A stretch of 64,000 bases of DNA, taken from the NCBI RefSeq assembly GCF_900176005.1, contig NZ_LT838272.1, forward strand, positions 1,507,587 through 1,571,586, in the 5' to 3' direction. The stretch is from Thermanaeromonas toyohensis ToBE (GTDB lineage: Bacteria > Bacillota > DSM-521 > Neomoorellales > Neomoorellaceae). Numbering within the stretch: the first letter of the stretch is position 1; every line of letters begins with the position of its first letter. This document shows, piece after piece, positions 4,091-35,637 of this stretch. Made by a program: the position numbers and the translations under genes. The notes beneath the pieces are model-generated. The model did not search any database. It saw nothing but the letters and a program-made list of their open reading frames with translations, and was not told where the DNA came from.

Positions 4091-5452
4091 GTGAACCTTT
4101 TTCTCTCACAGCAACACAGCCTGCGGAGGAGGCTGGAGGAAGGGTGGAAGCAGGGGGGATACGGCGAGGGTTCGCCTTCTTTGAGCGACGAAGAGCTGTA
4201 CTCCCTCCTGCGCGAGCCGTGCTCCAGGATGCTCAGACAAAAGTTTACGCTGCAGGAGCTGGCTTCATGGCGTGACCCAGCCCAGGGCGAACGGATAAGG
4301 CGTGCCATGGAACTATTTGTGGAGGATTTTCTGGCATCCTACCGCGACGACCAGGGGAGGAAACCGGAAGTGACCATGGGCCAGCGGCGCCGCGTGGTGG
4401 ACAGGCTGGTCAGCGCCTGTCTCGGGTACGGGCCCCTGGAGAGATTTTTCTCCGACCCGATGGTCATGGAGGTCGTCGTCGTGAGATGGGACAACGTTTG
4501 GCTGGAGCGAGGAGGTGAAAGGATACGGTTGCCCAAGGAGGAATGCTTTGAGAGCGAGGAACACTGCCGTGCCGTACTCGAGCGGATGCTGGAGGGATCT
4601 GGCAGGCAGATTGACCTGGCGAACCCCAGGGTCGATGCCAGGCTGCCTGACGGCTCGCGGCTGAAGGCCCACATTCCCCCGGTGGCTGTCGACGGCACCA
4701 CCATAACCGTCCGGCGCTTCAGGAAAGACATCACCGGTGAAAAGCTGGTAGAGCTGGGTACGGTCTCACGGGAACTCCTGCACTGGCTGGGCGAGTGCGT
4801 GAGGGGGAGGCTCAATATTGTGGTATCCGGCGGTACGGCTTCCGGCAAGACCACCCTTTGCAACGTGCTAGCGGGCTTTATCCCCAAGCACGAGTGGCTG
4901 GTGACCATCGAGGACCCCGCGGAACTGCAGTTCGACCACCCCTGCGTCCGGCGGCTGGAGGCCAGGCCCCCGAACACGGAAGGCAAGGGGGAGGTGACCA
5001 TGCTGGCCCTCCTCATGGACGCTTTGAGGATGCACCCGGACAGGATCATCGTTGGAGAAGTGAGGGGCCCGGAAGCGTTCCTGGCGATTAACGCCATGAA
5101 CACGGGCCATGACGGCAGCCTGCTGACGTTGCACGCTAACAGCGTGAGGGACGCCCTGGCGCGGATGGTCAACATGGTCCTCATGGCGGACACGGGTCTG
5201 CCCTATGAGGCCATTGTCGAGCAGATCCGGAGCGCCCTGGATCTGGTAGTTCATGTCGAACAGGACCGCGAGTTCAGGAGGCGCATTGTGGAGGTTGCGG
5301 AGGTGCTCGGTTCCGATGCGGGCAGCCCCGGAGAGTTCCTGCTGCAGCCGCTTTGGAAGTTTGACAGGGGTAGCGGCACCTGGCAGAGGGTGGGTTCCCT
5401 GACCGAAGCGGTCAGGTCGAGGCTGGCACGCTGGGGGGTGAACGTCGAATGA
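4091..5452 (+). CDS. tadA: TadA/CpaF pilus assembly ATPase (copy 1)
   Basis: Hexameric secretion ATPase of the GspE/VirB11 superfamily (453 aa) powering Flp pilus assembly at the membrane. The N-terminal domain contains YGPLERFF and the Arg-rich RVDARLPDGSRL segment. The catalytic domain has Walker A SGGTASGKTT near residue 247, the Asp box IEDPAELQ, Walker B IIVGEVRGPEAF and the His box GHDGSLLTLHANS. Length matches the family. GTG at 4091 has AAGGAAGGGGG at 4072-4082 upstream. The stop overlaps tadB by 4 bp (ATGA), so coupled translation is likely. A paralogue is at 15901; the two are clearly diverged in sequence. Confidence 0.93.
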   Translation: MNLFLSQQHSLRRRLEEGWKQGGYGEGSPSLSDEELYSLLREPCSRMLRQKFTLQELASWRDPAQGERIRRAMELFVEDFLASYRDDQGRKPEVTMGQRRRVVDRLVSACLGYGPLERFFSDPMVMEVVVVRWDNVWLERGGERIRLPKEECFESEEHCRAVLERMLEGSGRQIDLANPRVDARLPDGSRLKAHIPPVAVDGTTITVRRFRKDITGEKLVELGTVSRELLHWLGECVRGRLNIVVSGGTASGKTTLCNVLAGFIPKHEWLVTIEDPAELQFDHPCVRRLEARPPNTEGKGEVTMLALLMDALRMHPDRIIVGEVRGPEAFLAINAMNTGHDGSLLTLHANSVRDALARMVNMVLMADTGLPYEAIVEQIRSALDLVVHVEQDREFRRRIVEVAEVLGSDAGSPGEFLLQPLWKFDRGSGTWQRVGSLTEAVRSRLARWGVNVE

Positions 5453-6351
5453 GCGTTTACCTCTTTTTGGCTTTCTGGATGTCTTTTGGCGCCGTTTTCT
5501 TCGCCGTGACGGGTGTCCACAGGAGGAAGCGGGAGCGGGACTGGAGGTCCGTGCGGGCATCCGCTGCGGCGGGCGGTAGGGAAAGCAGCAGGCGGCCGGC
5601 GGGTATGTTGGGCAGGCTGGTTTCAGAAGCCGAAGCTGCCGGCATAGAGGTCAGTACGGGACAGCTGGTGGCGGTACTCCTGGCGGGGATCCTGGCCGGG
5701 GCGGCCGTGGGGCTTGCGGCCACGGGTGCCCTGCCGTTTGCACTGTTCGGTGCGGCCGCCGGCCTGTTCGTCCCCGGGTGGTGGTTGCGCAGGAAGATAG
5801 AGGGCCGAGCCCGGGCTTTCGACGAACAGCTCGAGAAGGGGTTGTCCGCCATGGTGGCGAGCCTGCAGGCGGGTTCCGACACCATCCAGGCGGTGGAGGA
5901 AGCGGCGCGGCAGGCAGCGCCCCCGCTGAAGGAAGTCCTGGATGCCGCACTTAGCTATCTCCGGACGGGGGACACGCTGCCGGAGGCGCTGGAAAAGGCG
6001 GCGCGGAAGGTCAGGTCGCGGGACATGGAGCTGGTGACTGCAGCCATAACCGTCAACCTGCGCACGGGGGCCAGACTCGTGACGGTCCTGGAGGAGGTGG
6101 CCGAGTCCATAAGGGAGCGCAAGATATTCCGTGCCCAGGTGGCGGCCAGGTGCGCTCAGGCGAAGGCCGCGGGGAACGTGCTTGCCGCGGTGCCCTTATG
6201 CTTCCTTATAATCTTCCGGTTGATGAATCCGGAGTATATGAAGCCCCTGACTTCCACGGCAGCCGGGCAGGTAGTCCTGGCCGTGGCATTTGTTATGTTC
6301 GGCGCGGGATGGCTTATTGTGCGGAGGTTGCTCAGCATTGAGGATGTTTAG
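5449..6351 (+). CDS. tadB: TadB inner-membrane platform protein (copy 1)
   Basis: Type II secretion F-type (T2SSF) platform protein of the Tad machine, 300 aa. A hydrophobic N-terminal segment (residues 3-23), a pair of helices around 65-105, a cytoplasmic T2SSF domain with KGLSAMVASLQAGSDTIQAV and a TGARLVTVLEEVAESIRER motif, then two C-terminal membrane helices ending in RRLLSIEDV. This is the usual TadB layout and length. Its start codon overlaps the tadA stop. Normally tadC follows directly; here two surface-protein genes come between. Confidence 0.88.
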   Translation: MSVYLFLAFWMSFGAVFFAVTGVHRRKRERDWRSVRASAAAGGRESSRRPAGMLGRLVSEAEAAGIEVSTGQLVAVLLAGILAGAAVGLAATGALPFALFGAAAGLFVPGWWLRRKIEGRARAFDEQLEKGLSAMVASLQAGSDTIQAVEEAARQAAPPLKEVLDAALSYLRTGDTLPEALEKAARKVRSRDMELVTAAITVNLRTGARLVTVLEEVAESIRERKIFRAQVAARCAQAKAAGNVLAAVPLCFLIIFRLMNPEYMKPLTSTAAGQVVLAVAFVMFGAGWLIVRRLLSIEDV

Positions 6352-6493
6352 GGAAATTGGAAAAGAAGTAAAAGGAGGTGGTGCAAAACTGACAATTGAT
6401 GGAATTCAGGTTTCTAATTAGAATAGTGGTAGCAGGACAAGCGACCTGTTGCTTTTGGAGGAAAAACAATAAAATCTGAGGAGGAGTGGTGCT

Positions 6494-7504
6494 ATGGGCA
6501 AGAAATTCACGCTTCTAGGCTTTGGTGTGTTAACTATAGTGGCATTGGTAATATCAGTGCTTATTTTCCCTGCTATTCCGGCGCTGGCCGAGATGGAGTA
6601 CCGCTTTGTCGATAAGGACAGCATTGAGACCGACTTTGCCTGGGGCAAGAACGACATCATAGAGGCCATCGACTTTGAGCTGTACAAGGGCTATCCGGAC
6701 AGCACCCTACGTCTGGGCAACGACATAACCCGCGCGGAGTTCGCGGCTGTGCTGGCCCGGTGCATTGACGTGTCCGGCGACCCAGGCCCGAACTGGTACG
6801 ACTCTGCCGTGGACGGCCTGGTGAAGCTGGGCGTCATCCCCGACAAGGGCGGCGATTGGAACGCCCCGATAACGCGGCTTGAGATGGCCCAGTGGCTCGG
6901 CAGGCTGGCCAAGGTGTACAACCTGCCGGAGAAGGATTTGGGTGCGGCGTTTAGCGACACCTACGACGAAGACGCCCTCAGGGCTGCCCGCGCGGGTTTG
7001 GTGAAGGGCGTGTCCGCCGGGGTGCTCGGCGCCGATCAATACCTGAACCGGGCGCAGGCCGCGGTGCTGCTCTTCCGGGTAGCGAGGAGCGTGGACACGA
7101 ATTTGCCGACCGACGAAGAGCTGATCCAGGCCCGGAAGGAAGCCTTGGAAGATGTTAACGCCAACATTGTGGATTTCGAGACTCGTCGCAACGTGGACCT
7201 GAGCTTCTACGACAAGTTGCCCTATAAACGGGTCACCAGGACGTACTTCGAGGGCGAGCGGAAGTTCATGTACGCGAATAAGGACAACGGGAGGAAGAAT
7301 GTGCGGATTATTTTGAAAGAGGCACGGATAGCTGAAAAGCATAATTCCATTGCTTATGTAGTCAGCGATATTGAGAACGAGAAGGGCTACAAGGGTTATG
7401 TCGTTTCCCGTTTCAAGAAGATAGACGGCCGGTGGATGATGACCCAAAGCAGTTCCCCGCAAAATATGACGGAGTGGAAAATGGTCAAGAGCGTTGGTTG
7501 GTAA
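6494..7504 (+). CDS. S-layer-homology (SLH) domain protein
   Basis: Exported 336-aa protein. An N-terminal signal peptide ends near residue 32 (FPAIPALAEM). Three SLH repeats follow: about 50-95 with LYKGYPDSTLRLGNDITRAE, about 98-145 with LVKLGVIPDKGGDWNAPITR, and about 150-200 with LVKGVSAGVLGADQYLNRAQ. SLH trios bind pyruvylated secondary wall polymer, anchoring the protein to the wall. The C-terminal 120 residues form a mixed alpha/beta region resembling NTF2-like folds. The ribosome site GGAGGAGTGG precedes ATG 6494; the same AGGAGTGGTGCT leader precedes the next gene. The position between tadB and tadC suggests a wall anchor or collar for the pilus (inference). Confidence 0.85.
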   Translation: MGKKFTLLGFGVLTIVALVISVLIFPAIPALAEMEYRFVDKDSIETDFAWGKNDIIEAIDFELYKGYPDSTLRLGNDITRAEFAAVLARCIDVSGDPGPNWYDSAVDGLVKLGVIPDKGGDWNAPITRLEMAQWLGRLAKVYNLPEKDLGAAFSDTYDEDALRAARAGLVKGVSAGVLGADQYLNRAQAAVLLFRVARSVDTNLPTDEELIQARKEALEDVNANIVDFETRRNVDLSFYDKLPYKRVTRTYFEGERKFMYANKDNGRKNVRIILKEARIAEKHNSIAYVVSDIENEKGYKGYVVSRFKKIDGRWMMTQSSSPQNMTEWKMVKSVGW

Positions 7505-7537
7505 ACAAAAATAACTTTCAAAAAGGAGTGGTGCTCC

Positions 7538-9478
7538 ATGCGTAGAAAAGCCTTTTTCGGGGCTTTTCTCTTTTTGTCCTTTTTTCTGTTGCTTATGACG
7601 GTGACCCCAGCCTTGGCTTTTGAGGGAGGGGGCGGGGCAAGTCAAGGCGACCCCCGCGACAGCCGGGCACCGCGGAGCGAGGAGGGCGTCACCTGGTACG
7701 TCCGCGCGGTGCCGGTACTCCTGTACAACCCCGGCTCCCTGGAGATAACCAAAGGCCAGGGAGCATGGCCTCTGGCACTTAAGTTCAGGGACGTGGACCT
7801 GGTGTGGGGCGAGCTCTGGACCAAGCCGGGATGGGCCAGAGAAGAGACGCGCTTCGGCCTGAACCAGCTTTACATCCCCATCGACCCCGGGATGAGTCCG
7901 GCTCCTCCTTCCGGCGACAAGGAGATCCTTGTGCCAGCGGGGGGCTTGGAAGAATACCAGGAAAAACTGTCGCAGTGGGTCCACATTAGGCCGCAGGTGA
8001 GAGTCATAGAGGGCGGGACCGTCTGGGCCTCGGACGCGTCCAGCGCGTTCTACGTTTCGGTGCCGCTCCCCTCGCGTGAAGACTTCCTGGCGCAGGCCGC
8101 AGGCATGAATGAGGCGCTGGCCGAGAAGTGGAAGGTTTATTTGGCCAGCGACGACCCGAACGCTGATAACGGCCGGATCCCGTCTGCGGACGGGAGCAAC
8201 AGGAAGTACTACCGCGCCCTGGACGCCTTCAAGCGGGGTGCGACCTACTACTACCACCTGCTCCTGAACCCCGGGCCGCAGTCGGGGAACTGGGCGGTGG
8301 CCGCGGAGATAACCCCTTACTACGACGAACCCTCTCCCGACGGGAAGGGGTTCTACCGTGGCAAGGACTGGGCGCAGCATCTGGAAACCAGCCCCGGGAT
8401 GGTCCCGGGCTTTATCGGGGCTATCACGCCCTGGGCCAACCTTAAGCTGGAAGGGCCTACCGAGGTGGTGGGTGTTCCAGGCGAAGAAAAGGAGGCCCAA
8501 TTTACAGTCACGTGCGAATATAGTTATCCGTTGAACTTTAATGTAGGGACTATGCGTGAAGGCGAGCAGGCGTACACGAAAGTAAGGGAAGGGCTACAGG
8601 TGCCTGCGTGGGGGAAGGTGCCGGTCACCCTTAAGTTCAAGATAGAGGACAGGCCTTATAGGGTGCGGGTCGGTATTTTTTCGCTAGGCGTGTTTGAAGA
8701 AGATTATAAGGACAATGATGTTGATGTGGTGGTGAAGCCGGTCCCGCCGGACTTCTACGCCAGGATAGAGCCCGACCGCGCGGAAGGCGAACCTGGGGAG
8801 GAAGTGTCGTTTACGGTTACCTATGGTCTCAAACCTGAGTACCCCGTACCGTGGAAGGGGCTCCTAAGGGCATTCCACGTAGCTGGTGGTGAGCATCCTG
8901 TTGCTTTAGAACCCCTGGACGGTGCACCTGACCCGGGCGGTCCGGTGGAGTTTCAGCCAGGGCAGGAGTACCGGTACAGGGTGAGGGTGCATGTACAGGA
9001 GAGCGCGAGCGAAGTGGTAGCGAAGGTCAACCCGGTGGACACTTCTGAGGATGCGGACTGGAGCGACAACAGGGCGGTTGCCAGGGTGGAGCCGGTATAT
9101 CCCTGCACGGACATATCGGTGGAAGTATGGGCTGACGAGGTAGGGGTGGACAGCGGCGGCAGCGTGACGGTATTTGTGGTGGTCAGACGGGGCTACGACG
9201 GTCCCAGCCGTGAGGTTCCGGTTGATGTGAAGCTGACTTCCGGTGCGGGGGGCACCAAGACGTGGGTGCTGAGCCTCCCGAAAGGGGGTAAGGCGTCCCT
9301 GGAGGCCACTTATACTTTGACGGGGAACGGGACCGTGGTGTTCACCGGTGAGGCGTGGCCGCGGGGAGTGGAGGACTGCGTACCGGGGAACAACCGCGGC
9401 AGGGTCAGCGTGACGGTGGAGGAGCTCGACCTGCCGGAACCTGAGGACAGGGGGATATTTGTAAGACTGATAAGCTAG
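7538..9478 (+). CDS. Secreted protein with repeated CARDB-like beta domains, function unknown
   Basis: 646 aa, signal peptide at residues 1-28 (FFLLLMTVTPALAFEG). The N-terminal 300 residues do not match a family I recognise. From about residue 305 there are three or four tandem beta-sandwich segments with the pattern 'P..A.V.PGEE...FTVT' and 'DN.V..VV' (for example DYKDNDVDVVV, DWSDNRAVARVEP, GNNRGRVSVTVEEL), typical of CARDB/Ig-like adhesion modules. No transmembrane anchor or LPXTG is seen at the C-terminus. The ribosome site AAAGGAGTGG lies at 7521-7530. The gene is followed by a strong terminator and sits inside Tad cluster A, so a pilus-associated or surface role is likely but unproven. 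Confidence 0.7.
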   Translation: MRRKAFFGAFLFLSFFLLLMTVTPALAFEGGGGASQGDPRDSRAPRSEEGVTWYVRAVPVLLYNPGSLEITKGQGAWPLALKFRDVDLVWGELWTKPGWAREETRFGLNQLYIPIDPGMSPAPPSGDKEILVPAGGLEEYQEKLSQWVHIRPQVRVIEGGTVWASDASSAFYVSVPLPSREDFLAQAAGMNEALAEKWKVYLASDDPNADNGRIPSADGSNRKYYRALDAFKRGATYYYHLLLNPGPQSGNWAVAAEITPYYDEPSPDGKGFYRGKDWAQHLETSPGMVPGFIGAITPWANLKLEGPTEVVGVPGEEKEAQFTVTCEYSYPLNFNVGTMREGEQAYTKVREGLQVPAWGKVPVTLKFKIEDRPYRVRVGIFSLGVFEEDYKDNDVDVVVKPVPPDFYARIEPDRAEGEPGEEVSFTVTYGLKPEYPVPWKGLLRAFHVAGGEHPVALEPLDGAPDPGGPVEFQPGQEYRYRVRVHVQESASEVVAKVNPVDTSEDADWSDNRAVARVEPVYPCTDISVEVWADEVGVDSGGSVTVFVVVRRGYDGPSREVPVDVKLTSGAGGTKTWVLSLPKGGKASLEATYTLTGNGTVVFTGEAWPRGVEDCVPGNNRGRVSVTVEELDLPEPEDRGIFVRLIS

Positions 9479-9489
9479 AGGCCTGCCGG

Positions 9490-9531
9490 GCACGGGCCGC
9501 ACGGGGTTTCGGTTGTGCGGCCCGTGCTTAT
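9490..9531 (+). terminator. Factor-independent terminator after the secreted-protein gene
   Basis: A perfect 13-bp stem: GCACGGGCCGCAC (9490-9502) pairs with GTGCGGCCCGTGC (9515-9527) across a 12-nt loop, followed by a modest T-rich tail TTATCTT. It lies between the 646-aa protein gene and tadC, so it may reduce rather than stop read-through. Confidence 0.75.
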
Positions 9532-9560
9532 CTTAATTGAAAGGAGGTAGGACAACTGGG

Positions 9561-10448
9561 ATGGCTGATGCGGCTTTCTTTGCGGGGATACTGACTGCAG
9601 GTGCGGTTTTTCTCGGGGGTGCCTATCTTGACGCGCGGGTCAGGGGCAGGTTTTCTCTGGCGAAGCTGTCCGTGGAACGGTTGCAGAGTAGTGTATCGGA
9701 GAGCAGGAGTGCTGCGGTGTCCTTCCTGGCTCACACCTTTGGGCCAGCCGTGCTGGTGGTGTTCCCAGATGACGTGAGGCTCAGGACCAGGCAACGGCTT
9801 ATTCAGGCTGGAATTTACCACATGGATGCCGCCGACTTTTTGGCGCTGAAGCTGGCCGGGTTGCTGGGTATGGTTCTGTTTGTAGTGACCCTAGCGGTAG
9901 TTTCGGGCCGGTCCCCTGCGTGGAGCGTCCTGTCGTCGGGTATTGGGTACGTTTTGCCCGAGGTGTGGCTGGACGCCCGGCTCAAGCGAAGGCGTGCGGA
10001 GATAGAAAAGGCGGCCCCGGATTTTGCCGTGCTGTTGTCCGCCGTTTTGGCCGCCGGTGGCGTGGGGATAAACGAGGCGCTTAAGGAGGTCGGCGAGAGG
10101 ATAGGCGGAGAGCTGGGGTTGGAAGTGAAGCGTACGTTTATTGAAATAGCGTCCGGCAAACGCCGGGGTGAGGCCCTGGAAGCGATGGCGGAAAGGTGCG
10201 GTGTGGCGGAAATTTCAGAAGTGGTGCGGTGCATACGCTCAGCCGAGCGGTTCGGTGTCCCCATAGCTGAGGCGTTGCGGGATATGGCGGCTCAGGTGTA
10301 CCAGATGCGGAGGGCTCGGGCCGAAGAAAAGCTGGGAAGGGCGCAGGTGGCAGTGATTGTTCCCATGATGCTGTTTTTTATTCTGCCGCTGCTTTTGATG
10401 CTCTTTTTCCCGGCGATTGTCAAGTTATCCGTTGTACTACACACATAG
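9561..10448 (+). CDS. tadC: TadC inner-membrane platform protein (copy 1)
   Basis: Second T2SSF-type platform protein of the Tad machine, 295 aa from ATG 9561. An upstream in-frame TTG at 9537 overlaps the ribosome site AAGGAGG (9541-9547) and is rejected. Helix at residues 5-25, paired helices about 90-135, then the cytoplasmic T2SSF domain with PDFAVLLSAVLAAGGVGINE and GVPIAEALRDMAAQVYQMRR, and a hydrophobic C-terminus (MMLFFILPLLLMLFFPAIV). Length and order match TadC. The Flp pilin gene follows within 30 bp. Confidence 0.88.
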   Translation: MADAAFFAGILTAGAVFLGGAYLDARVRGRFSLAKLSVERLQSSVSESRSAAVSFLAHTFGPAVLVVFPDDVRLRTRQRLIQAGIYHMDAADFLALKLAGLLGMVLFVVTLAVVSGRSPAWSVLSSGIGYVLPEVWLDARLKRRRAEIEKAAPDFAVLLSAVLAAGGVGINEALKEVGERIGGELGLEVKRTFIEIASGKRRGEALEAMAERCGVAEISEVVRCIRSAERFGVPIAEALRDMAAQVYQMRRARAEEKLGRAQVAVIVPMMLFFILPLLLMLFFPAIVKLSVVLHT

Positions 10449-10475
10449 ATGGTTGCGGAAAGGAGGTGAACTCCG

Positions 10476-10640
10476 GTGCTGGGACAGGTGAGGTGGAAGG
10501 TACGGGGAATGACTATGGTTGAATACGCACTGCTCGGTGTAGGCATTGCTATTTTCGTGTTTGGAATGGTCATGGCGTTGGGAGGCAAACTAAATGAAGT
10601 GTTTCAAACGATAATAAACAAGCTCAGCCAGCTCCGTTAA
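10476..10640 (+). CDS. flp: Flp/Fap-type pilin (54 aa)
   Basis: Small major-pilin candidate: starts GTG 10476, reads MLGQVRWKVRG and then the Flp signature MTMVEYALLGVGIAI with the conserved Glu-Tyr pair, followed by one long hydrophobic helix and a short hydrophilic tail ending NKLSQLR. The prepilin peptidase would cut after Gly11, leaving Glu at mature position 5. The ribosome site AAAGGAGGTG (10460-10468) is strong, and a terminator begins about 20 bp after the stop. The length, motif and position at the end of the tadC unit support this call. The gene is below the size limit of many gene finders. Confidence 0.87.
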   Translation: MLGQVRWKVRGMTMVEYALLGVGIAIFVFGMVMALGGKLNEVFQTIINKLSQLR

Positions 10641-10660
10641 GAGGTGAGTTTACTATTGGA

Positions 10661-10693
10661 AAGCGCACCTGTTGTTCGCGGGTGCGCTTTTTT
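10661..10693 (+). terminator. Terminator after flp (end of Tad cluster A)
   Basis: Stem AAGCGCACC (10661-10669) with GGTGCGCTT (10681-10689), 11-nt loop, then a run of six T. A classical factor-independent terminator closing the tadC-flp unit. Confidence 0.9.
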
Positions 10694-11393
10694 GTTGGCC
10701 TGCTAGCCTCAGCGTAGACCAGCAGGTGCGTGTGCTTCCTAGCAGGGACTTGCCTTTTCAGGGTAATGGACGATGAGGCGAGCCCGCGCGGTAGAAAATA
10801 GCGGTTTTCCGGCGTGGCTGTTTCAGTCTCCTGTGTCTCGTCGCACGAGGAGTCATCGCACCCCGATGTCACTGGATCGGAGGGGATAATCGTTGCTCTG
10901 TTTCACTTTTGGTACCAGATTCTATCAAAAGATAGCAACCCGGCAACAAAGCAGGCCCGAAGTTCACGCTCTCCGAGAGGCCGGGTTATATCCCCACCTG
11001 TACGGCTGGCAAAACAGGTGGACCGCGGCTTCTGGAGTCCCGCCCGAAACAGTCGCACACGTGCCCCCAGGGGCATCAACCGGCAGCCCGAAGGCCACCG
11101 TCCTCCCCAGTGAACACGTGCCTTCCAAACGGCGGAGTGGTCCGAACGCCCGCCTGCAGGGCTCCCACCCGGAGAGGATTTAGGAAAGGTTGGCACCACT
11201 GCCAGCGTGCCGCTGCGCATGCACTCCCAGCAGGGCACCCGGCGGTGCTCAGGGCCCTTAAAGGCCCCTCATCGTTAAAGCCTGCCTTCGCGTGCGCCCA
11301 CCGCCAGCCAGCACACGTTCCACCAGCACTTTCTCCCGCCGGGCCTCCCCTACCTCCCACGCCCCGTGGACACCCGGGGCAGAACAAATACTG
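10694..11393 (-). other. Non-coding stretch downstream of tnpB; holds the IS607 right end and a candidate guide RNA
   Basis: About 700 bp with no convincing gene on either strand. It lies 3' of tnpB on the minus strand, the place where TnpB-associated guide (omega/reRNA) scaffolds and the element end are found in characterised IS elements. I can see short inverted repeats (CCTGCT at 10699-10704 with AGCAGG at 10721-10726; CTATC at 10922-10926 with GATAG at 10931-10935) but no diagnostic boundary. IS607 elements lack terminal inverted repeats, so the right end cannot be fixed by eye. Confidence 0.35.
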
Positions 11394-12824
11394 TTAAACT
11401 GCGTTCTTTTCGTAATAGCGGCGCAGGAGTATTTCTTTGACCTCCCTGTAAGGCGTGTACCTCGTTATCTCTTCATCGTGCAGCCTGCCCTTCACGTTTA
11501 TGGCATTGACCTGGTCCGCATCAGCTGTAAAGCCGCACTTGCGGCACTTGAAAACGTCCCCGTCCCGGTTCAGCGGGTCCACCCAGTGGCACACCGGGCA
11601 CTCCTGGCTGGCATAGGCCGCATTCACCGGACCCGGGTCCGCCACCGAGTTAACGTAGCTCTTGTATTCCAGGTGCTCTTTAGTTATGCGGCGCATCCAC
11701 AGACTGACCTTCCTGGAAAGACCTTTGCTCTTCGCCTTGCCACGCAGGTGCGACAGGTCTTCGTAGGCTATCACCTTGGGCCTGCGCACCTTAAAGAGCT
11801 CATTGAAGGCACGGTTGATCTCGTTCTCGCACCTGCGCCTGTACTTCCCGTGCTTCCTCCTCTGCTTGGCAAAGCCCAGGTTGTTCTTCCTTATGCGCCG
11901 CGCCCTTGCCGGGTCCTCTTCCAGGTACCTCCGGTAGAGCGCCCACAGCTTCTGTCGCTTCCTTCCCTTGTCCAGTATGCAGTCCGACATCTCCTGGAGG
12001 GCTACGCCGTACTCCGGCCGGTACTTCCTGCCAGCGTCGTCGGTAAACACTTCCGTTATGCCCAAGTCTATGCCCACTTCTTCCTCTCCGGGAGGGTACA
12101 CCCGCGGGTCCCGGCTTATGTGTACTTCTACCGCCCGCTCATCGGGCAAAAGCACTATCCTCAGGTTGCCATCTACCGCATGTATTCCCGCCAGCGGGAC
12201 GACCACCCGCTCCCCGGGAGTAAGGGTGGCCACGGCTATGTACTGCCGGTCTTCCGTGCTGAAGACCCGGTACATCTGCTGGTCCACCGCAAAGCTCCGC
12301 GCCTTCCTCACCCGGGGCCTCCTCCCCAAAACACGCCGGAAAACACGCCTGAGGTATTTCCGCACCCTGCTCCTCCCGGAGGCGTCCAGGTCTATGTTCT
12401 CCCCCGTCACGTCCTCCCCGGTGAAAATAGCCTGTATCCTTCTCCAGTCACGGCCCCCCTTCGGGGGCTTGTACAGCAGCCAGAAGGCATAGTGCTTCTC
12501 TTCCCCCGTGAGCCCTTCATGACGGGCGACCAGGTCCTTTACCGCCTCTATGGCGGCCTCCCACTGCCTCTCGAGTGTGTAGAGGGCGTCCTCCAGCGCA
12601 AGCTTCCACATGCGGGCCTGCAGCCCGAACGGGCTGGTAAAGCCGCGGGAAACCAGCTCATCACGGAGGGAGCGCTTGTCCCCGAGATAGTGCAGGTATT
12701 TGATATGCGCGTACTCCACCAGAAAGGCGTCCTTCTGCCGGGCATACGCCTCAGCGGTCTCCACCAGCTTCGCCCACTTACCGCTGTTCAGGGGCAGGCT
12801 CTTCTGCCTTACGGTCCGCTGCAC
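11394..12824 (-). CDS. tnpB: TnpB RNA-guided nuclease of an IS607-type element
   Basis: 476-aa TnpB, ancestor-type relative of Cas12. The N-terminal wedge/REC-like region (1-250) precedes a RuvC domain with EVGIDLGITEVF (catalytic Asp near residue 277), VIAYEDLSHLRG (catalytic Glu) and DADQVNAINVKGR (third catalytic Asp), interrupted by a zinc finger CPVC...CRKC. All three catalytic acids appear present, so the nuclease could be active. It overlaps the upstream recombinase gene by 47 bp, as is common in IS607. It is longer than the compact 400-aa type because of an N-terminal extension. The 3' flank would encode its guide RNA. Confidence 0.9.
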   Translation of the reverse strand: MQRTVRQKSLPLNSGKWAKLVETAEAYARQKDAFLVEYAHIKYLHYLGDKRSLRDELVSRGFTSPFGLQARMWKLALEDALYTLERQWEAAIEAVKDLVARHEGLTGEEKHYAFWLLYKPPKGGRDWRRIQAIFTGEDVTGENIDLDASGRSRVRKYLRRVFRRVLGRRPRVRKARSFAVDQQMYRVFSTEDRQYIAVATLTPGERVVVPLAGIHAVDGNLRIVLLPDERAVEVHISRDPRVYPPGEEEVGIDLGITEVFTDDAGRKYRPEYGVALQEMSDCILDKGRKRQKLWALYRRYLEEDPARARRIRKNNLGFAKQRRKHGKYRRRCENEINRAFNELFKVRRPKVIAYEDLSHLRGKAKSKGLSRKVSLWMRRITKEHLEYKSYVNSVADPGPVNAAYASQECPVCHWVDPLNRDGDVFKCRKCGFTADADQVNAINVKGRLHDEEITRYTPYREVKEILLRRYYEKNAV

Positions 12825-13437
12825 CAGCTATCGCCTCCCGCACCTTTTTTACCAGCTTGCGTGCCTTGTAAGTCCGCTGGCCGTAAAGCTTGGCCGCAAA
12901 GTGCTGCACAATGCTTATAAGGTCTTCTGCTAACTCCTGTGCCGGGGACGCGTCCTCCGCCCGGTTGACTACCAGTATCTCGCAGCCGAACTTGGCAAAC
13001 AGGTCTTCGAAAAACTCAAACCCAAACCGCACCAAACGGTCCTTATAGGCAACGATAACAGTCTTGACTTCTCCCCGCGTCACCATCCCGCAGAGCTTTA
13101 AAAAATTTTTGCGCCGGTAGTTGAGGGCAGAACCGACATCTGTGAGTATCTCATCGATTGGTATCCCTCTCCCGGCGGCAAATTCCTTGAGATAGTTCAG
13201 CTGGTTCTCCAGGTCGGACTTCTGCCCCGCCGAAGAAACCCTGGCGTAAAGCACAACCTTTTTGGGCTCTTCCCGCTTTTTTAAACCCAACGCGCGGTAC
13301 AGCATCTCTTCGGTGTACCGGCGCTTGCCAGTGGGCGTCCTCAGGGCCACCAGCTTGCCTTCCCGGTCCCATGCACGTAGTGTAGATACGCTTACTCCAA
13401 GTTTCTCGGCAAATTCACGGATGGTATATAGCCTCAT
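12778..13437 (-). CDS. tnpA: IS607-type serine recombinase (TnpA)
   Basis: 219-aa site-specific serine recombinase that moves the element. A MerR-like helix-turn-helix is at residues 1-50 (YTIREFAEKLGVSVSTLRAW), then the catalytic domain with VLYARVSSAGQKSDL, where the nucleophilic Ser follows 'YARVS', then DVGSALNYRRKNF and AYKDRLVRFGFEF. IS607 enzymes place the DNA-binding domain N-terminally, as here. ATG 13437 is chosen because AGGTGG lies just upstream; a GTG at 13449 would overlap that site. Its 3' end overlaps tnpB. Confidence 0.92.
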   Translation of the reverse strand: MRLYTIREFAEKLGVSVSTLRAWDREGKLVALRTPTGKRRYTEEMLYRALGLKKREEPKKVVLYARVSSAGQKSDLENQLNYLKEFAAGRGIPIDEILTDVGSALNYRRKNFLKLCGMVTRGEVKTVIVAYKDRLVRFGFEFFEDLFAKFGCEILVVNRAEDASPAQELAEDLISIVQHFAAKLYGQRTYKARKLVKKVREAIAGAADRKAEEPAPEQR

Positions 13438-13452
13438 GTGTAGCACCACCTG

Positions 13453-13486
13453 ATATCAGTGTATATCAGATAGTGCCATTTGACAA
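13453..13486 (-). promoter_or_regulatory. Candidate promoter and ATATCAG direct repeats upstream of tnpA
   Basis: On the minus strand TTGTCA (complement of 13481-13486) and TACACT (complement of 13458-13463) are separated by 17 bp, a plausible -35/-10 pair for tnpA. Two copies of ATATCAG (13453-13459 and 13463-13469) are exactly 10 bp apart, one helical turn, over the -10 region: a possible TnpA binding or element-end site. An inverted repeat GACAATA/TATTGTC (13482-13499) overlaps the -35. Confidence 0.35.
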
Positions 13487-13567
13487 TACAACTATTGTCT
13501 AATAGTTAACCCGGAAAAAACTGTTGTTACCTCCCAGGACGTAACGGATATATTCGTGGGTGCTTTA

Positions 13568-13720
13568 ATGTCGTCAGTGAAGCGCATTGTAGCGAGTGTG
13601 GTAGGATTGCTAGTTCTGCTAGCAGGCTCCATCTTGGTGTCGCGATGGTTCCAATTGGTCCTGAGCGCGCTGGTTGTTTCTGGTGCTGTATGGGTGGTCT
13701 GGATAGCTGTTCAAAAGTAG
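13568..13720 (+). CDS. Small two-helix membrane protein (50 aa)
   Basis: A short frame from ATG 13568 reads MSSVKRIVASVVGLLVLLAG and then a second hydrophobic stretch (LVLSALVVSGAVWVVWIAV), ending in a Lys. The positive-inside N-terminus and two predicted transmembrane helices look protein-like, and the frame fills the gap between the IS607 left flank and the peptidase gene. The ribosome site is weak. No family recognised. It could be the remaining head of cluster B or a chance frame. Confidence 0.4.
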   Translation: MSSVKRIVASVVGLLVLLAGSILVSRWFQLVLSALVVSGAVWVVWIAVQK

Positions 13721-13742
13721 TGAATCGGAGGGGGTATGTGGC

Positions 13743-14258
13743 GTGCAGTACGTGCTTTATGCCGCAGCCATAGTCTGCCTGGCTTGGGCCGGCTGGTCGG
13801 ACGCCAGGAGGATGGAGGTACCGGTATTACCGGTGGCAGTGCTTTTCTGTCTTGGTTTCGTAAGGGTAGCATTGTTGCGCGAATGGTATAGTCTTGCAGT
13901 ACCCCTGGTGACCGTCGTGCTGTGTGTGCCGCTTTATTTGCGCCGTGGCATGGCGGAGGGAGACTTGCTAACCATGCTGGCCCTTACGGGATGGTTTAAT
14001 GGGTCGGTGTACGCTGTGATAGTGGCGGTTAGCTTCGCTGCCGGAGCGGCATGGGGGGTTATCAGGCTGCAGCGCGCCGGGGAACTGGGCTCGTGGCTGA
14101 AGAGAGTAAGCGCAGGCGTATGGGCGGAGGTGCCGGATACAAGCGAGAATGGGTTGAAATGTCCGGCATGCGTTCCCATGGTAAGTGCGATCGCGCTGGT
14201 TGCCGGAAGCGTCATGATTGTTCGCATGCTCGGGATGGCAGTTGGCACCCAGCGTTAG
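13743..14258 (+). CDS. cpaA: CpaA/TadV-type A24 prepilin peptidase
   Basis: 171-aa polytopic membrane aspartic protease. The first catalytic Asp is in GWSDARRMEVP (Asp21) and the second in the family motif GMAEGDLLTM (Asp near 74). There are about five membrane helices and no cysteine-containing N-terminal methylase domain, as in TadV/CpaA. Expected to cleave the leaders of Flp pilins and TadE-like pseudopilins. GTG 13743 is preceded by GGAGGGGG. It stands at the head of cluster B and is followed closely by the split PilD genes, so this locus has two A24 peptidase active sites. Confidence 0.85.
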   Translation: MQYVLYAAAIVCLAWAGWSDARRMEVPVLPVAVLFCLGFVRVALLREWYSLAVPLVTVVLCVPLYLRRGMAEGDLLTMLALTGWFNGSVYAVIVAVSFAAGAAWGVIRLQRAGELGSWLKRVSAGVWAEVPDTSENGLKCPACVPMVSAIALVAGSVMIVRMLGMAVGTQR

Positions 14259-14268
14259 CGGGGTGAGG

Positions 14269-14562
14269 ATGTTGAAAGCTTTCTGGGTTGGAGTTGCATT
14301 CTTGTATGGGGCGCTCACTGGCAGCTGGCTAAACATGCTGGCGTACCGGCTAGCCCGCGGCATGTCTGTGTGGCGGCCTTCAAGATCTTTCTGTGATGGT
14401 TGTGGCAGGACAGTGGGGTTGCTGGAACTGGTGCCGATACTGGGATGGGTTGTGCTCAGGGGAAGGGCCCGCTGCTGCGGGGTGAGGATCAGCCCGGTCT
14501 ATCCTTTGAATGAGCTGGCGTGGGGGTTGCTGTTCTGTGTAATGTTAATGACACTCTGGTGA
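14269..14562 (+). CDS. Stand-alone N-terminal (methylase-type) domain of prepilin peptidase
   Basis: 97 aa equivalent to the first third of PilD/GspO: membrane helix with FLYGALTGSWLNMLAYRLAR, then the zinc-type loop CDGCGRTVGLLELVPILGW and RARCCGVRISPVYPLNELAW, ending in a helix. This is the region that carries the N-methyltransferase-associated cysteines in bifunctional prepilin peptidases. The frame stops with TGA instead of running into the peptidase domain, which is encoded separately 80 bp on. Start ATG 14269 (GTG 14263 also possible) follows the cpaA stop by 10 bp. Either a natural gene split or an old frameshift. Confidence 0.78.
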   Translation: MLKAFWVGVAFLYGALTGSWLNMLAYRLARGMSVWRPSRSFCDGCGRTVGLLELVPILGWVVLRGRARCCGVRISPVYPLNELAWGLLFCVMLMTLW

Positions 14563-14641: not shown

Positions 14642-15178
14642 GTGGATGCTCGTTGGGCATATTTAATTGGCTGTCTCTTGCCCTCTCTGGTCGTTATCTA
14701 TACTGATGCCAGGTACTTTGAGGTCTCAGACAAAGTGGTTATGTTTATTTTGCTGTCAGGTCTCTTGTGGTCAGCGCACGCCGGGGTGCTGTCCGATGCC
14801 CTTCTGGGAGCTGGACTGGGGTTTATCTTGTTAATTGGGCCGTGCCTGATGAACCTTGCGGGCGGGGGAGACCTGAAGTATGCCGCGGCATTAGGGGTGT
14901 GGTTTGGCCCGGCTGGGCTGGTCCGCATTCTGTTTTGGGCCGCAATCCTGGGGGCTGCGTGGGGCATTTTGTTGAAGCTGCGCCGGGGCAGGTTCCGTGC
15001 GTGGCTTGTGACTTTTCTAACGGGGCTGTGGCTTAGGGTCGCCTATAACGTGAGGGGTTCAGTACTGGTGCCGGTCGTAGCGGGGACCCAGTCGAAAAAT
15101 ATACCGGCGGAAGCGGTGCCGTTTTGCGTGTTTATGGCGTTGATGGCATGGATCATCTTTTGGTGTGGGGGTGTTTAA
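14642..15178 (+). CDS. Stand-alone peptidase domain of prepilin peptidase (A24)
   Basis: 178-aa membrane protein carrying both catalytic aspartates of the A24 family: Asp in VVIYTDARYFEVSD and Asp in NLAGGGDLKYAAA. This is the part missing from the preceding gene. GTG 14642 is chosen because AAGGAGG at 14624-14630 lies upstream; an ATG at 14621 overlaps that site. The own ribosome site argues that the split is functional rather than a fresh frameshift. The 3' end overlaps cpaB2 by 14 bp. The first Asp context (YTDARYFEVSD) differs from the usual 'ID....LPD'. Confidence 0.8.
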   Translation: MDARWAYLIGCLLPSLVVIYTDARYFEVSDKVVMFILLSGLLWSAHAGVLSDALLGAGLGFILLIGPCLMNLAGGGDLKYAAALGVWFGPAGLVRILFWAAILGAAWGILLKLRRGRFRAWLVTFLTGLWLRVAYNVRGSVLVPVVAGTQSKNIPAEAVPFCVFMALMAWIIFWCGGV

Positions 15179-15956
15179 GTTGCGTTTCAGTGTGAAGTCG
15201 CCCAAATTTTATGCGTTTAGAAATCAGGTGCCTTTAATAGTTGCGATAGTTGTCGGCCTCGCTGTGGCTCTGGGCAGCGCCCGGTTTTTGCTTGGGTACG
15301 CCAAAACGCAGCACGAGACGGTCAGGGTGCCGGTGCCCGCCAGGGATATTGCGCCGTACACGGTCATTTCACCCGGTGACATCACGTGGCGGGATGTAAT
15401 AAAAGGGGCTGAAGAAGCCGGCGCCGTGCGCGATCCGAGAGAAGTTGTGGGGAGAGTGGCTTTGAGCCCCCTTTACCGCGGAGAGCAGATAAGGAAGGAA
15501 CGGTTGGCCGATCCTTCTTTCGTGACGGGACGACAAGTGGTGGCCGTTAGTATTGACGTGGCGCGCTGTGTGGGCGGGATCCTAGTGGCGGGCGACCTGG
15601 TGGATGTGTGGTGGGTGCCGGACCCGGGCCAGCCGGAGAGGTGGGTGCTGGTTGCGACCGATGCCGTAGTGCTAGACGTACGTGATAGTTCCGGCCGCAC
15701 TGTGCTGCCCCAGGGAGGGCTGGTACAGCAGGCCATTGGAGGGGTCGTGCAGTCTTCTCCATCCAACCCGCCGGCCGTGGCGGTGTTGGCAGTGCGGACT
15801 GAGGAAGTGCAGAAGGTTATTGGTGGCGCCTCGCCCAAGTCCCAGTTTGTTGTGCTTGCGAAAAAATTCATCAGCAGCAATGCGGGAGGGATAAGTGCAA
15901 ATGCAAATCTCAAGGGGAACACTGAAACAGAATCTCCGGCGGGAGCGCGCCGGTAA
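15165..15956 (+). CDS. cpaB: CpaB/RcpC-like protein (copy 2)
   Basis: 263 aa with an N-terminal membrane helix (about 20-42) and an SAF domain: VRVPVPARDIAPYTVISPGD and VVGRVALSPLYRGEQI, then the second CpaB domain VVAVSIDVARCVGGILVAGD with VDVWWVPDPGQPERW. This fits the classical CpaB better than copy 1. GTG 15165 or GTG 15171 are both possible; the gene overlaps the upstream peptidase gene. Its 3' end overlaps the tadA2 start, suggesting a tightly coupled operon. Confidence 0.88.
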   Translation: MGVFKLRFSVKSPKFYAFRNQVPLIVAIVVGLAVALGSARFLLGYAKTQHETVRVPVPARDIAPYTVISPGDITWRDVIKGAEEAGAVRDPREVVGRVALSPLYRGEQIRKERLADPSFVTGRQVVAVSIDVARCVGGILVAGDLVDVWWVPDPGQPERWVLVATDAVVLDVRDSSGRTVLPQGGLVQQAIGGVVQSSPSNPPAVAVLAVRTEEVQKVIGGASPKSQFVVLAKKFISSNAGGISANANLKGNTETESPAGARR

Positions 15957-17253
15957 GATGACCTTTGAGGAAGGTCTGCGTCTAGTGCAGAGCGAGTTCA
16001 TGGACCCGGAGGTCTTGGGGGAAGAAGAGGCGGCACGCAACAGGAGGGCAGCAGAGGACGCCATGGCGGGCGTGCCGGGCAGTCGCGAGACAGTGATCTC
16101 CCTGCTGGTTTCCTTTCTGTCGGACAGGGGGATAGAGATCAAAGAAATGGATATGCAGCTGGCGGCTTATGAAATATACCGTGAACTGTGGGGCCTCGGG
16201 CCCCTGGAGGAAATATACTGCGATCCGGAAGTGAACGAAATCCAGGTAAACGCACCCGACAGGGTTTACGTGCTCAAAAACTTGAGATTGGAGTATGTAC
16301 CCGGAGTGCGGTTCCGGGACGATGACCACGTTATGAACCTCATTGCCAGGCTGGTCATGCACGACCGGGGTGTGGCGCTCAACAGGTCTAACCCCACGGT
16401 GGAGTCTATGCGCAAGGACGGTACCAGGATAACTGCTACCTGTCCGCCGGTGTCCGAGCACGTGACCTGTACGCTGCGTAAGCACCTTCGTCGCGTTGTT
16501 TCCTTCGAGGAAATGATATCTCGGGGAGTACTGGACGAAAAAGGGCGCGACCTGCTGAGGCTGCTGGTTAAGGGTCGGGCGAACATAGCTGTCATCGGCG
16601 GCGTGGGTAGCGGAAAGACGACGCTGGTGCGCACTCTGTGCGGGGAATTCGACCGGCGCGCGAGGATAGTCGTGCTGGAGACCGACCGGGAACTCCAGCT
16701 TGCCCGTAATTACCCGGACCGGAACGTGATAGAGCTGGAGGAACATGCAGAAATAGGCCGCACTTTAAAGAGCATCTTCCGCGTGGTGCTGAGGTATTCG
16801 CCGACGGTAATAATCGTAGGGGAGTTCCGGGGAGAAGGCGAGGCATCCGAGGCCGTGCAGGCCTGCGAGCGCGGACATGATGGTTCGATCACTACCGCCC
16901 ACTTTAATTCCGCCCGCCTGTTCGTGTCGGGTACGGCGAGGATGCTGCTAAGGGAGGGGCTGAACCTGCCCAGGGATGCTGCTGAAGAGATGGTGGCTTC
17001 CGCCTTCAACGTGGTGGTGAAAATGTTCGGCGATTCCACTCGCGGGGTTATGAAACTGGAGGCGATTACCGAACTGATTCCGGGAACCCCTGTGATCTAC
17101 CGCGACCTCTTGCGGTGGGTTCCGTCCGGAAGCGACTACCTCGAGGGCAACTGGCAGCTTGTGGAGCGTCCGAGCGAAGAGCTCATATTACGCCTGAACA
17201 AGTACGGCGTAAGCCGTGAGATGCTGGAAGAGGTGTATAGGCGGTGCTCGTAA
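15901..17253 (+). CDS. tadA: TadA/CpaF pilus assembly ATPase (copy 2)
   Basis: 450-aa secretion ATPase. It shows YRELWGLGPLEEIYCDPEVN at the N-terminal domain, Walker A GGVGSGKTT near residue 240, Asp-box LETDRELQL, Walker B IIVGEFRGEGEASE and the His box ERGHDGSITTAHFNS. ATG 15901 lies 10 nt after GGGAGGG (15884-15890); GTG 15895 is an alternative. It begins inside the end of cpaB2. It is only distantly similar to copy 1, so the two clusters are probably separate Tad systems rather than a recent duplication. Confidence 0.93.
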   Translation: MQISRGTLKQNLRRERAGKMTFEEGLRLVQSEFMDPEVLGEEEAARNRRAAEDAMAGVPGSRETVISLLVSFLSDRGIEIKEMDMQLAAYEIYRELWGLGPLEEIYCDPEVNEIQVNAPDRVYVLKNLRLEYVPGVRFRDDDHVMNLIARLVMHDRGVALNRSNPTVESMRKDGTRITATCPPVSEHVTCTLRKHLRRVVSFEEMISRGVLDEKGRDLLRLLVKGRANIAVIGGVGSGKTTLVRTLCGEFDRRARIVVLETDRELQLARNYPDRNVIELEEHAEIGRTLKSIFRVVLRYSPTVIIVGEFRGEGEASEAVQACERGHDGSITTAHFNSARLFVSGTARMLLREGLNLPRDAAEEMVASAFNVVVKMFGDSTRGVMKLEAITELIPGTPVIYRDLLRWVPSGSDYLEGNWQLVERPSEELILRLNKYGVSREMLEEVYRRCS

Positions 17254-18158
17254 CGGCGGCGCTTCTTGCTTTTGTTTGCGGCCTCGCATCCGCTGCAGGT
17301 TCCTTTACGCTGCTGCTCTTCAGGCTGTCCGGGAAGGAAGCCCTGCGTGCGCGCTTGCGGAGGCTGGCCGCTACTGGTGTCGGTTTGTCGAGCGTACTTG
17401 AAAGGTGGTCCGTTCGCGCCGGTAGGGGCATGCGCGAAAGTATTTTCAGCGTATCGAACCTGCCGTATCTGATCTTGCTGGGCCTGTGTTCCGCCTGCGG
17501 CCTGTGGTTTGGAATTTTTTACCTGCGCAACCCTCTGGCCGGTATTATCCTGGCCGCGGGCGGTGTCGTCTTCCCCGAGCAGGTCCGCAGGCTGCGGAGG
17601 AGGGCAAGGAGGGAAAAAGTCATTGAACAGCTGGGGGCGGCAGTACGCGTTTTCAGTGCTGAGTATTCCGACACGCCTCATCCGGTGAAGGCCCTGGCGG
17701 CAACGGCGGCTAAATTACCCGACCCTGTGGGAGGTATCCTCCGCAGGACGGTATCCGGCCTGACTGCCGCCAGGAATTCCGAAGACGTTGACGTGGCACT
17801 GATAAACATGGGGCGGGAACTCGGTGGAGAATATGGCAAAATGTTCGCGCAGTTAGTGCGGCTGTCTTTCGAAGATGAGGCCGTGAAACCCCTCTTTAGT
17901 AGGCTCGCGGCACGGATTACGGCACAGCAGGATCTGGTGCGGAAAAACAGGCTCGAAATTTCGGTAGATAGGGCCCTGGCTCTCATCCTCAACCTTGCTG
18001 TTGTCCCGGTCTACTTTATAGTGGTGCGGACAGTGCCTGAAGCAAGCGAATTCTTTCATGCAACGGCGGCGGGTAAAGGCGTGATTGCCCTCTGTCTTTT
18101 CTCTGCTGTTGTGGGTAGTCTGCTGGATATAGTTATCGGAGGAGTGGACGATGGTTAG
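17244..18158 (+). CDS. tadB: TadB platform protein (copy 2)
   Basis: 304 aa. An N-terminal helix (2-24), central helix pair (about 70-115), a T2SSF cytoplasmic domain with EQLGAAVRVFSAEYSDTPHP, and C-terminal membrane helices. The T2SSF core is more diverged than in cluster A. GTG 17244 overlaps the tadA2 stop by 10 bp and the 3' end overlaps tadC2 by 8 bp. The paired order tadA-tadB-tadC supports the call. Confidence 0.8.
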   Translation: MLVTAALLAFVCGLASAAGSFTLLLFRLSGKEALRARLRRLAATGVGLSSVLERWSVRAGRGMRESIFSVSNLPYLILLGLCSACGLWFGIFYLRNPLAGIILAAGGVVFPEQVRRLRRRARREKVIEQLGAAVRVFSAEYSDTPHPVKALAATAAKLPDPVGGILRRTVSGLTAARNSEDVDVALINMGRELGGEYGKMFAQLVRLSFEDEAVKPLFSRLAARITAQQDLVRKNRLEISVDRALALILNLAVVPVYFIVVRTVPEASEFFHATAAGKGVIALCLFSAVVGSLLDIVIGGVDDG

Positions 18159-18954
18159 GCAGTTGCTGTTGGTCTGCTTTCTCATAGGAACATGGGTAGC
18201 CATCGGAGCAGCGGTGCTGCTCTGTGCGAGGTCTCTGGTTGTGCCCGTCCGGGTGCGGTTCCTGGATAAGCACGTTGCTGGTTTGAGAAGAAACGTTATT
18301 GGCTTTGTGAGTTCACGTCGATTTCCTGCCGTTTCAGGAAGCAACATGCCTTTTCTTATAGGCGGCGGAGTCGGGATGTGCGTCGCGGCGGTCTCGACCT
18401 GGGGGTCCCCGGCTTTCATGAGTTCCCTTGGGATAGGGGCATGTGCGGGTGCCCTCGGGGGATGGCTGGTATACAGCAACATAAGGGAGACGCGGCGGCT
18501 GCGCCTCCTCCGGGAAGTGGCCATCCTGTACGAAGCCGTGGACTTTTTTACTCTTGTAGGTTACACCATTCCCCAGGCGCTGCGGCTCGGGTCTATTGCC
18601 ACTCCTTCCTTGCGAGCCCACGTAGAGAGGTGCCTGGCCCGATATTCACGGGACAGGGTGAGAGCGCTCGAAGAGTTCGCCCGCGAAGTGAACCTGCCGG
18701 AGGCAGCACTGCTGTCCTCGGTGCTGGTGCATGCAGAAGAAGCGGGCATGTCCATGAGCCGAAGCGCCCTCCAGGAAGAAAGCCGCAGTCTGGAAGAGCT
18801 GCGGCGCAGCCTTTCGGAACTGCGCGTGGTTAGCAAGCCTATATATTTTGCTGTGTACCGGGGTCTGCCGCTGATAGCCGTAAGCAGCCTGCTTGTGGGC
18901 CCTCTGGCCTACAGGCTGGTTGTTATGTTGAAAATGTTCAGTACTCTGCAATGA
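18151..18954 (+). CDS. tadC: TadC platform protein (copy 2)
   Basis: 267 aa with helices at residues 4-26 and 65-105, a T2SSF-type domain (YEAVDFFTLVGYTIPQALRL; HAEEAGMSMSRSALQEESRS) and a final membrane helix. Starts at ATG 18151 with GGAGG upstream inside tadB2. Unlike cluster A, tadB and tadC are adjacent, with pilin genes immediately downstream. Confidence 0.82.
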   Translation: MVRQLLLVCFLIGTWVAIGAAVLLCARSLVVPVRVRFLDKHVAGLRRNVIGFVSSRRFPAVSGSNMPFLIGGGVGMCVAAVSTWGSPAFMSSLGIGACAGALGGWLVYSNIRETRRLRLLREVAILYEAVDFFTLVGYTIPQALRLGSIATPSLRAHVERCLARYSRDRVRALEEFAREVNLPEAALLSSVLVHAEEAGMSMSRSALQEESRSLEELRRSLSELRVVSKPIYFAVYRGLPLIAVSSLLVGPLAYRLVVMLKMFSTLQ

Positions 18955-28009: not shown

Positions 28010-28131
28010 TTTTGCCTCAGATCTGCGACGGTTTTTCAGGTTGGAGGGGTTGCGTTAAGGTGTAAGAGATATTTTTTGGTGCCAGGTTTATCGTTTGGGA
28101 ATTAATTGTTTTTGTATGGAGGTGATAAAAG

Positions 28132-30672: not shown

Positions 30673-30676
30673 CTTT

Positions 30677-31716: not shown

Positions 31717-31722
31717 GCCGAA

Positions 31723-35624: not shown

Positions 35625-35637
35625 TCACCCAGCTATT

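Follow-up and report, generated by a model that had tools for sequence, protein, structure and literature searches.

In the description of the Caulobacter Tad machine considered here, two proteins are proposed to brace or guide around the secretin: CpaD, a predicted OmpA-like, peptidoglycan-binding outer-membrane lipoprotein located at the secretin, and CpaI, a bridging protein with a beta-sandwich domain (PMC13170226). The Tad systems of Bifidobacterium breve and Micrococcus luteus have a minimal gene set and no secretin, and no wall anchor is named for them in the portions of the review covered here (PMC6916266); the same portions regard one proposal, that PilO of type IVa pili acts at the wall, as entirely speculative and ask what holds the Tad assembly complex together. 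Here, we analyze a 64,000-nucleotide stretch (the window; G000:C1:1507587-1571586) of the 3.33-Mb, single-contig genome of Thermanaeromonas toyohensis ToBE, in which two adjacent plus-strand genes of a Tad pilus locus encode a secreted, putative wall-anchor protein of 336 amino acids (SLHp; 6494 to 7504) and a large secreted protein of 646 amino acids (BIG; 7538 to 9478). Anchoring scaffoldins of cellulosomes likewise combine SLH repeats with a partner-holding domain, in their case a cohesin that holds a dockerin-bearing partner, and their modules are exchangeable. No description of the SLHp-BIG module was found among the titles and abstract openings returned by a literature search, which omitted most subscription papers and all bioRxiv preprints.

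We propose, at what we judge to be even chances, that SLHp and BIG each contribute one half of an accessory complex that is docked on the wall and belongs to the Tad-type pili of bacteria lacking an outer membrane. As described in part for CpaD and CpaI, the pair would join an envelope anchor to a bridging protein of a Tad machine, but here the anchor bears SLH repeats and there is neither a secretin nor an OmpA match. CpaD and OmpA models (Pfam and NCBIfam) matched neither SLHp nor BIG, and at an E value of <=0.001, no secretin was found in any of the 20 genomes examined (6 of 14 controls were positive), so the pair does not qualify as a CpaD-like secretin anchor. At the same threshold, Omp85 was likewise found in 0 of the 20 genomes, with 7 of 14 controls positive. 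A Tad machine without a secretin is what the pair's surroundings share with the B. breve and M. luteus systems as far as these are described in the source cited above. With cellulosomal scaffoldins, the pair shares an SLH wall part, a putative partner-holding domain, and exchangeable modules, but neither protein has a cohesin or dockerin match in Pfam at an E value of <=1.

Homologues of BIG were sought without Tad genes as bait. BIG alone gave matches in 21 of 299 genomes of the phylum, many of them to its immunoglobulin (Ig)-like part only, and profiles of two divergent BIG types gave matches in 33 and 25 of 398 genomes; loci, each comprising a match and its surroundings (at most 20 kb in all), were annotated with our own domain models, for which 17 BIG and 18 anchor sequences served as training set. 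For 41 of the 46 frames with a BIG-type N-terminal domain (a count that includes two pieces of one broken gene in L036), the same strand carries a gene with SLH or Cu_amine_oxidN1 upstream, at a distance of no more than about 0.5 kb. The other five are L157, in which the docking domain alone is visible at a contig end; L043, in which an anchor is present and the frame call overlaps; the second BIG gene of the tandem in L158; one of the two in L163; and L174. Within the window's family, SLH makes up the wall part; elsewhere, this part is mostly Cu_amine_oxidN1, a putative wall-binding domain, with SLH appearing again in L159, L175, and L199. The whole anchor-BIG pair is tandemly duplicated beside the Tad locus of L040 (G203; 7401 to 14294), with one gene between the copies.

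Linkage to pilus genes was assessed in 18 of the 33 genomes, those in which some locus is flanked by 7 kb or more on each side. A PF00437 ATPase gene lies within 12 kb of 12 of the 22 loci, compared with 0.69 expected from genome coverage (P = 2e-13), and within 20 kb of 14 loci, compared with 1.07 expected; in contrast, none of the 12 listed SLH-bearing frames of the window genome lies within 20 kb of such a gene. The link between the pair and Tad loci that the original prediction had drawn is thereby borne out, and the outcome that would have spoken against it, with the two genes occurring mostly away from Tad loci, was not seen in this sample, though eight of the loci lie beyond 20 kb or on contigs lacking such a gene.

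The place of the pair within its locus is another matter. The original prediction took tadB and tadC to be normally adjacent, which they are (in 18 of the 20 family loci having both genes, their matches are separated by less than 600 bp), and placed SLHp and BIG between them in the window, where both frames were confirmed. A survey of tadB-tadC intervals shows that this interval is not the general site of the pair: the arrangement is peculiar to the window genome, and in G261 and G098, the pair follows tadC and precedes tadE. The exceptions to tadB-tadC adjacency are the window locus, with a gap of 3.2 kb, and G132. Because tadB and tadC are adjacent in most family loci and the pair lies elsewhere in G261 and G098, its interposition in the window is a local rearrangement, and the pair itself belongs to the Tad locus; a general insertion between tadB and tadC is ruled out. 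At the same tadC-tadE place in G147, a genome of another family, a Cu_amine_oxidN1 protein precedes one that has a PQQ-propeller match, whose gene is interrupted and whose end looks BIG-like by eye. Overall, the idea of a wall-anchored part for a monoderm Tad pilus stands as regards the missing secretin and Omp85 and a plausible wall anchor but not as regards a general position between tadB and tadC.

Both proteins carry Sec-type signal peptides as read from their sequences. The SLH unit of SLHp (residues 34 to 197; 6593 to 7084) was delimited as three repeats with our own hidden Markov model (HMM), which includes SLHp itself; Pfam SLH scores 43.5 bits (cut-off, 20.8) over two stretches, and the third repeat was recognized by eye. 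The SLHp gene is absent from a genome-wide SLH search at an E value of <=0.001, and its repeats are therefore not among the genome's strongest. The family profile matches the S-layer proteins SbsB and Sap and, among solved structures, SLH-type entries only. CsaB, the wall-polymer pyruvyl transferase, makes the ligand of SLH domains, and the window genome encodes one (TIGR03609, 307.8 bits; cut-off, 213.1). Because SLH repeats and CsaB occur together in this genome, wall anchoring of SLHp is plausible. The remainder of the protein (residues 198 to 336; 7085 to 7501) constitutes its proposed docking domain, AcC, defined with our own HMM. Of 18 family genomes, 6, the window genome included, have a homologue of SLHp adjoining one of BIG, and a seventh, G306, gives a partial match only (E value of 1e-13). 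A second SLHp paralogue in the window genome (G000:C1:1598507-1599415; L070, 8507 to 9577) has a diverged C-terminal domain and no adjoining BIG gene.

BIG was divided into a proposed N-terminal docking domain, NtC (residues 23 to 297; 7604 to 8428; own HMM), whose region has many invariant columns in the family alignment; two tandem Ig-like domains, possibly of the CARDB type (residues 298 to 526; 8429 to 9115), assigned from an AlphaFold2 model and its matches in PDB; and a C-terminal domain, CtY (9104 to 9475; own HMM), of the type found at the family's canonical Tad loci. Pfam has no domain in BIG at an E value of <=1, and no solved structure matches it by sequence. The AlphaFold2 model, built from three sequences, has a mean predicted local distance difference test (pLDDT) score of 48 and is usable only between about residues 300 and 521; means over 10-residue blocks are 67 to 93 across residues 301 to 520, except at 381 to 390 (44) and 501 to 510 (56). 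A fold search of this model against PDB returned only tandem Ig-like domains, which indicate no function. Pfam CARDB does match the CtY region of the relative in L033 (30.8 bits; cut-off, 22.7) but not the window BIG.

The C-terminal domain of BIG follows the kind of pilus machinery encoded nearby. PilL, a pilin-like protein usually found beside a divergent TadA-type ATPase, occurs in 11 of 13 loci whose BIG ends in a second domain type, CtX, and in 0 of 23 loci without it (Fisher's test, 1.3e-7, with loci taken as independent); frames of <300 amino acids and second frames per locus were dropped from this count. The two CtX loci without PilL, L045 and L150, both have <3 kb downstream of BIG. 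TadE/TadG neighbors show the opposite distribution, with 0 of 13 CtX loci and 7 of the 23 others having them. Within the window's own family, N-terminal type C is joined to CtY at canonical Tad loci (window, G261, and G098) and to CtX either at a divergent machine (G301), whose ATPase scores best with the NCBI TadA-family model, well below its cut-off, or beside PilL (G162, of the same genus as the window genome; G212 is of the same family). Two further copies, L035 (at a contig end) and L037, also combine type C with CtY, although no Tad gene was seen near them; the CtY match in L052 is by construction, as the end of that protein was included in the model. BIG directly adjoins TadE in L033, L034, and L151 and PilL in L038, L041, and L159. 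The contact with the pilus that we propose for BIG rests on this correlation of its C-terminal domain with pilus type. Three members of PilL (L041, 3818 to 4348, and homologues) have no Pfam match, and one has no NCBIfam match.

At the other end of BIG, the N-terminal domain (Nt) and the C-terminal domain of the anchor (Ac) each exist as types A, B, and C, and the two correspond. The three N-terminal types have no detectable mutual relation, AcC has no cross-match to AcA or AcB in leave-one-out tests, and in those tests, all 17 N-terminal and 18 anchor training sequences fall in their own type. In all 15 typed pairs that had no part in model building (11 of type A and 4 of type B), the anchor and the BIG N-terminal domain are of the same type, for which the chance is 1 in 1365, or 1 in 495 when counted by 12 family units; the overall concordance of 33 of 33 pairs includes 18 rows used in model building, and only the other 15 are counted. 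The wall part, meanwhile, is exchanged: SLH is combined with type A in L175, with type B in L159, and also with type C, and Cu_amine_oxidN1 is combined with A and B. Two genomes of one genus, G252 and G276, illustrate what is exchanged, being 94% identical in the wall part of the anchor, 97% in the BIG C-terminal domain, 94% in PilL, and 98% in TadA, with a single block, running from the anchor C terminus through the BIG N terminus and across much of the following domain, replaced, such that identity is 23% in the N-terminal domain (the level of shuffled sequences) and 49% in the next domain. This is the pattern that matched partners would give, though their adjacency in the DNA eases joint transfer. 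Because anchor and BIG domain types match, we infer that the two proteins dock.

Under this proposal, the SLH unit would bind SLHp to the pyruvylated wall polymer, so that the protein stays in the wall, the C-terminal domain of SLHp would hold the N-terminal domain of BIG, and BIG would reach outward through its Ig-like domains. The C-terminal domain of BIG would then contact the pilus, its most likely partner being a minor pilin (TadE/TadG here, PilL in the divergent systems), and the complex may brace or guide the filament at the wall, like the job proposed for CpaD and CpaI. The stronger version, in which the pair does in monoderms what the secretin module does elsewhere, as a gate or collar of modular build that is fixed in the wall and lets Tad-type pili out, with interchangeable parts for wall binding, docking, and facing the pilus that are type-matched across many Bacillota, strikes us as unlikely.

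A number of observations weigh against a wall-docked pilus complex. AcA and AcB are distant relatives (90% by hhalign; cross-scores of up to 25 bits), some of the independent pairs share genera with training loci (L148 and L149), and nine more pairs were left out for want of a significant anchor docking domain, none of the seven that were scored exceeding 15 bits with any type. Because the two matched domains adjoin in the DNA and one recombination event moves both, the matching may be partly co-inheritance. In a mirror-tree comparison of 16 type-A pairs, docking domains could not be told apart from wall domains (0.32 versus 0.29). No docking surface was seen, because AlphaFold2, given three sequences, failed for SLHp (mean pLDDT, 48) and for BIG outside residues 300 to 521 or so. 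On the pilus side, the profiles of PilL and TadE share just a short, membrane-like segment (15%), and PilL was rejected as a TadE relative. For eight of the 22 loci, moreover, the nearest PF00437 gene is >20 kb away or the contig has none: L029 and L155 are beside PilL, L162 and L152 are on short contigs, and the other four (L037, L042, L043, and L165) are straightforward negatives, L037 being a second copy of the pair in G098 far from the pilus ATPase. One of the 12 near loci, L039, adjoins an ATPase that scores like PilB.

The type-A N-terminal domain of the module is the NCBIfam Athe_2463 domain (NF047340), an uncharacterized entry for which NCBI states no function and which is matched by the type-A relatives in L039, L040, L041, L042, L049, and L155 and found in 28 of 398 genomes. 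It is absent from the window BIG at an E value of <=1 (cut-off, 36 bits) and from the window genome. BIG here is of type C, with no detectable relation to type A. Like the module, proteins with the Athe_2463 domain have an SLH-like or Cu_amine_oxidN1 gene upstream in most loci inspected. Among the 11 Athe_2463 loci of family f85, examined over 20 kb each, an SLH-like gene lies upstream by eye in all 8 inspected, although in the three scanned with Pfam, SLH is below the cut-off (L189) or absent (L193 and L196); a TadA-type gene is present in three (L193, L196, and L197) and TadZ alone in L203, and the other 7 of 11 (L189, L190, L191, L192, L194, L195, and L198), having no Tad-type match, count against a pilus role.

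These points bring in the serious rival to a pilus complex, namely, that the pair is produced along with the pilus but does not touch it and works as an adhesin or substrate-binding protein tethered to the wall, with the anchor displaying BIG, the outer domain of BIG binding a surface, polymer, or cell, and pilus and adhesin forming two parts of one attachment program. This is a possibility that we take seriously while doubting it. An outer part that is modular would suit it well (Ig-like domains, a PQQ-propeller match in L052, and frames of up to 2557 amino acids), as would the pairs that lack a nearby pilus ATPase gene, and it fits the data from Caldicellulosiruptor bescii, in which Athe_2463 and its operon neighbor Athe_2464 are, in the part of the report considered, extracellular and abundant on xylan and xylose (PMC5865380). 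An independent adhesin, however, has no need of a C-terminal domain that tracks the type of pilus machine; also against this reading, one N-terminal type within a single family carries C-terminal domains that differ with the machine nearby.

The correlation of the C-terminal domain with a minor-pilin-like neighbor, and the direct adjacency of BIG to TadE or PilL in the six loci named above, would suit a pilus-tip adhesin riding on TadE/TadG or PilL, the anchor serving as a depot for unassembled protein or a brake on the retracted pilus; we think this quite improbable, as a tip protein would not need the wall-type partner that is kept in 41 of 46 cases. Least probable of all, in our view, is that an unrelated S-layer-type cargo pair with no pilus function was brought into the Tad locus by mobile elements. 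Genes that read as TnpB-like and IS607-type at 11394 to 13449, an IscB-like gene upstream, the rearranged gene order of the window locus, and the second copy of the pair in G098, near genes that read as IS200/IS605-type, are all in keeping with such an origin, but against it, the pair keeps turning up close to genes for pilus ATPases in different families (P = 2e-13). No viral or plasmid origin was found, with no relative among the plasmids (tblastn of BIG) or viral contigs (pattern scans) scanned; PADLOC and, on the window at gathering scores, Rfam also gave no match.

All features of the first Tad locus are on the plus strand. It begins with TadE (717 to 1130), continues with TadG-like, CpaB, TadZ, and TadA genes up to 5452 (Pfam, NCBIfam, and our own HMMs), and is completed by TadB (5449 to 6351; Pfam T2SSF, 2e-14), TadC (9537 to 10448; T2SSF, 5e-16), and, after TadC, a protein of 54 amino acids (10476 to 10637) that we take, by its motif alone, to be the Flp-type pilin. 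TadA, TadB, TadC, TadE, CpaB, and this presumed pilin identify it as a Tad (Flp) pilus locus, with CpaB at 57.5 bits falling below the NCBI cut-off of 71. A second Tad locus at 15165 to 18951 encodes CpaB, TadA, and two platform proteins (own HMMs), and the TnpB-like and IS607-type recombinase-like genes lie between both loci, where they are a possible cause of the rearranged gene order. A CpaB near the divergent Tad-type locus of G276, a genome of another family (L041, 13719 to 15000), is unusually close to the CpaB of the second locus (phmmer, 5e-99), a possible case of horizontal transfer. Directly upstream of tadE is the IscB-like frame of 548 amino acids (L178, 1636 to 3279, ending at window position 693), with an HNH-like motif by eye, whose 3' part is the window's first open reading frame. 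A VKOR/thioredoxin-like fusion, recognized by eye, accompanies Tad loci (L178, 490 to 1455; L033, 6606 to 7556; L052, 12109 to 12990) whose TadG-like proteins are very cysteine-rich, and it is possibly a dedicated disulfide system for pilus parts. After the second Tad locus, several large secreted repeat proteins are encoded at 25646 to 37871; in the first of them, stretches like RCC1 and Ig-like ones can be recognized by eye.

The two genes of the pair also have a common leader, as the original prediction observed. An exact 12-mer, AGGAGTGGTGCT, occupies the ribosome-binding region of SLHp (6482 to 6493) and precedes BIG (7524 to 7535), both on the plus strand, and these are its two sites in the window; allowing up to one mismatch adds one site (0.36 expected). 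It is not conserved, relatives keeping just a ribosome-binding-like stretch, and was rejected as a conserved signal. The pair is flanked by a sigma-70-like promoter match (6396 to 6424, plus strand; 9 of 12 positions; 3 in the region versus 1.2 expected) and by a 17-bp terminator-like hairpin after BIG (9488 to 9529, plus strand; 6 such sites versus 4.9 expected), neither of which clearly exceeds chance.

The SLHp-BIG gene pair addresses the question of how pili are held in, and cross, the wall of a cell with one membrane. It offers predicted contact regions along with a built-in contrast in specificity, between matched and mismatched domain types, and it provides a hypothesis of function for the Athe_2463 domain, whose proteins may form part of a wall-docked complex serving Tad-type pili.

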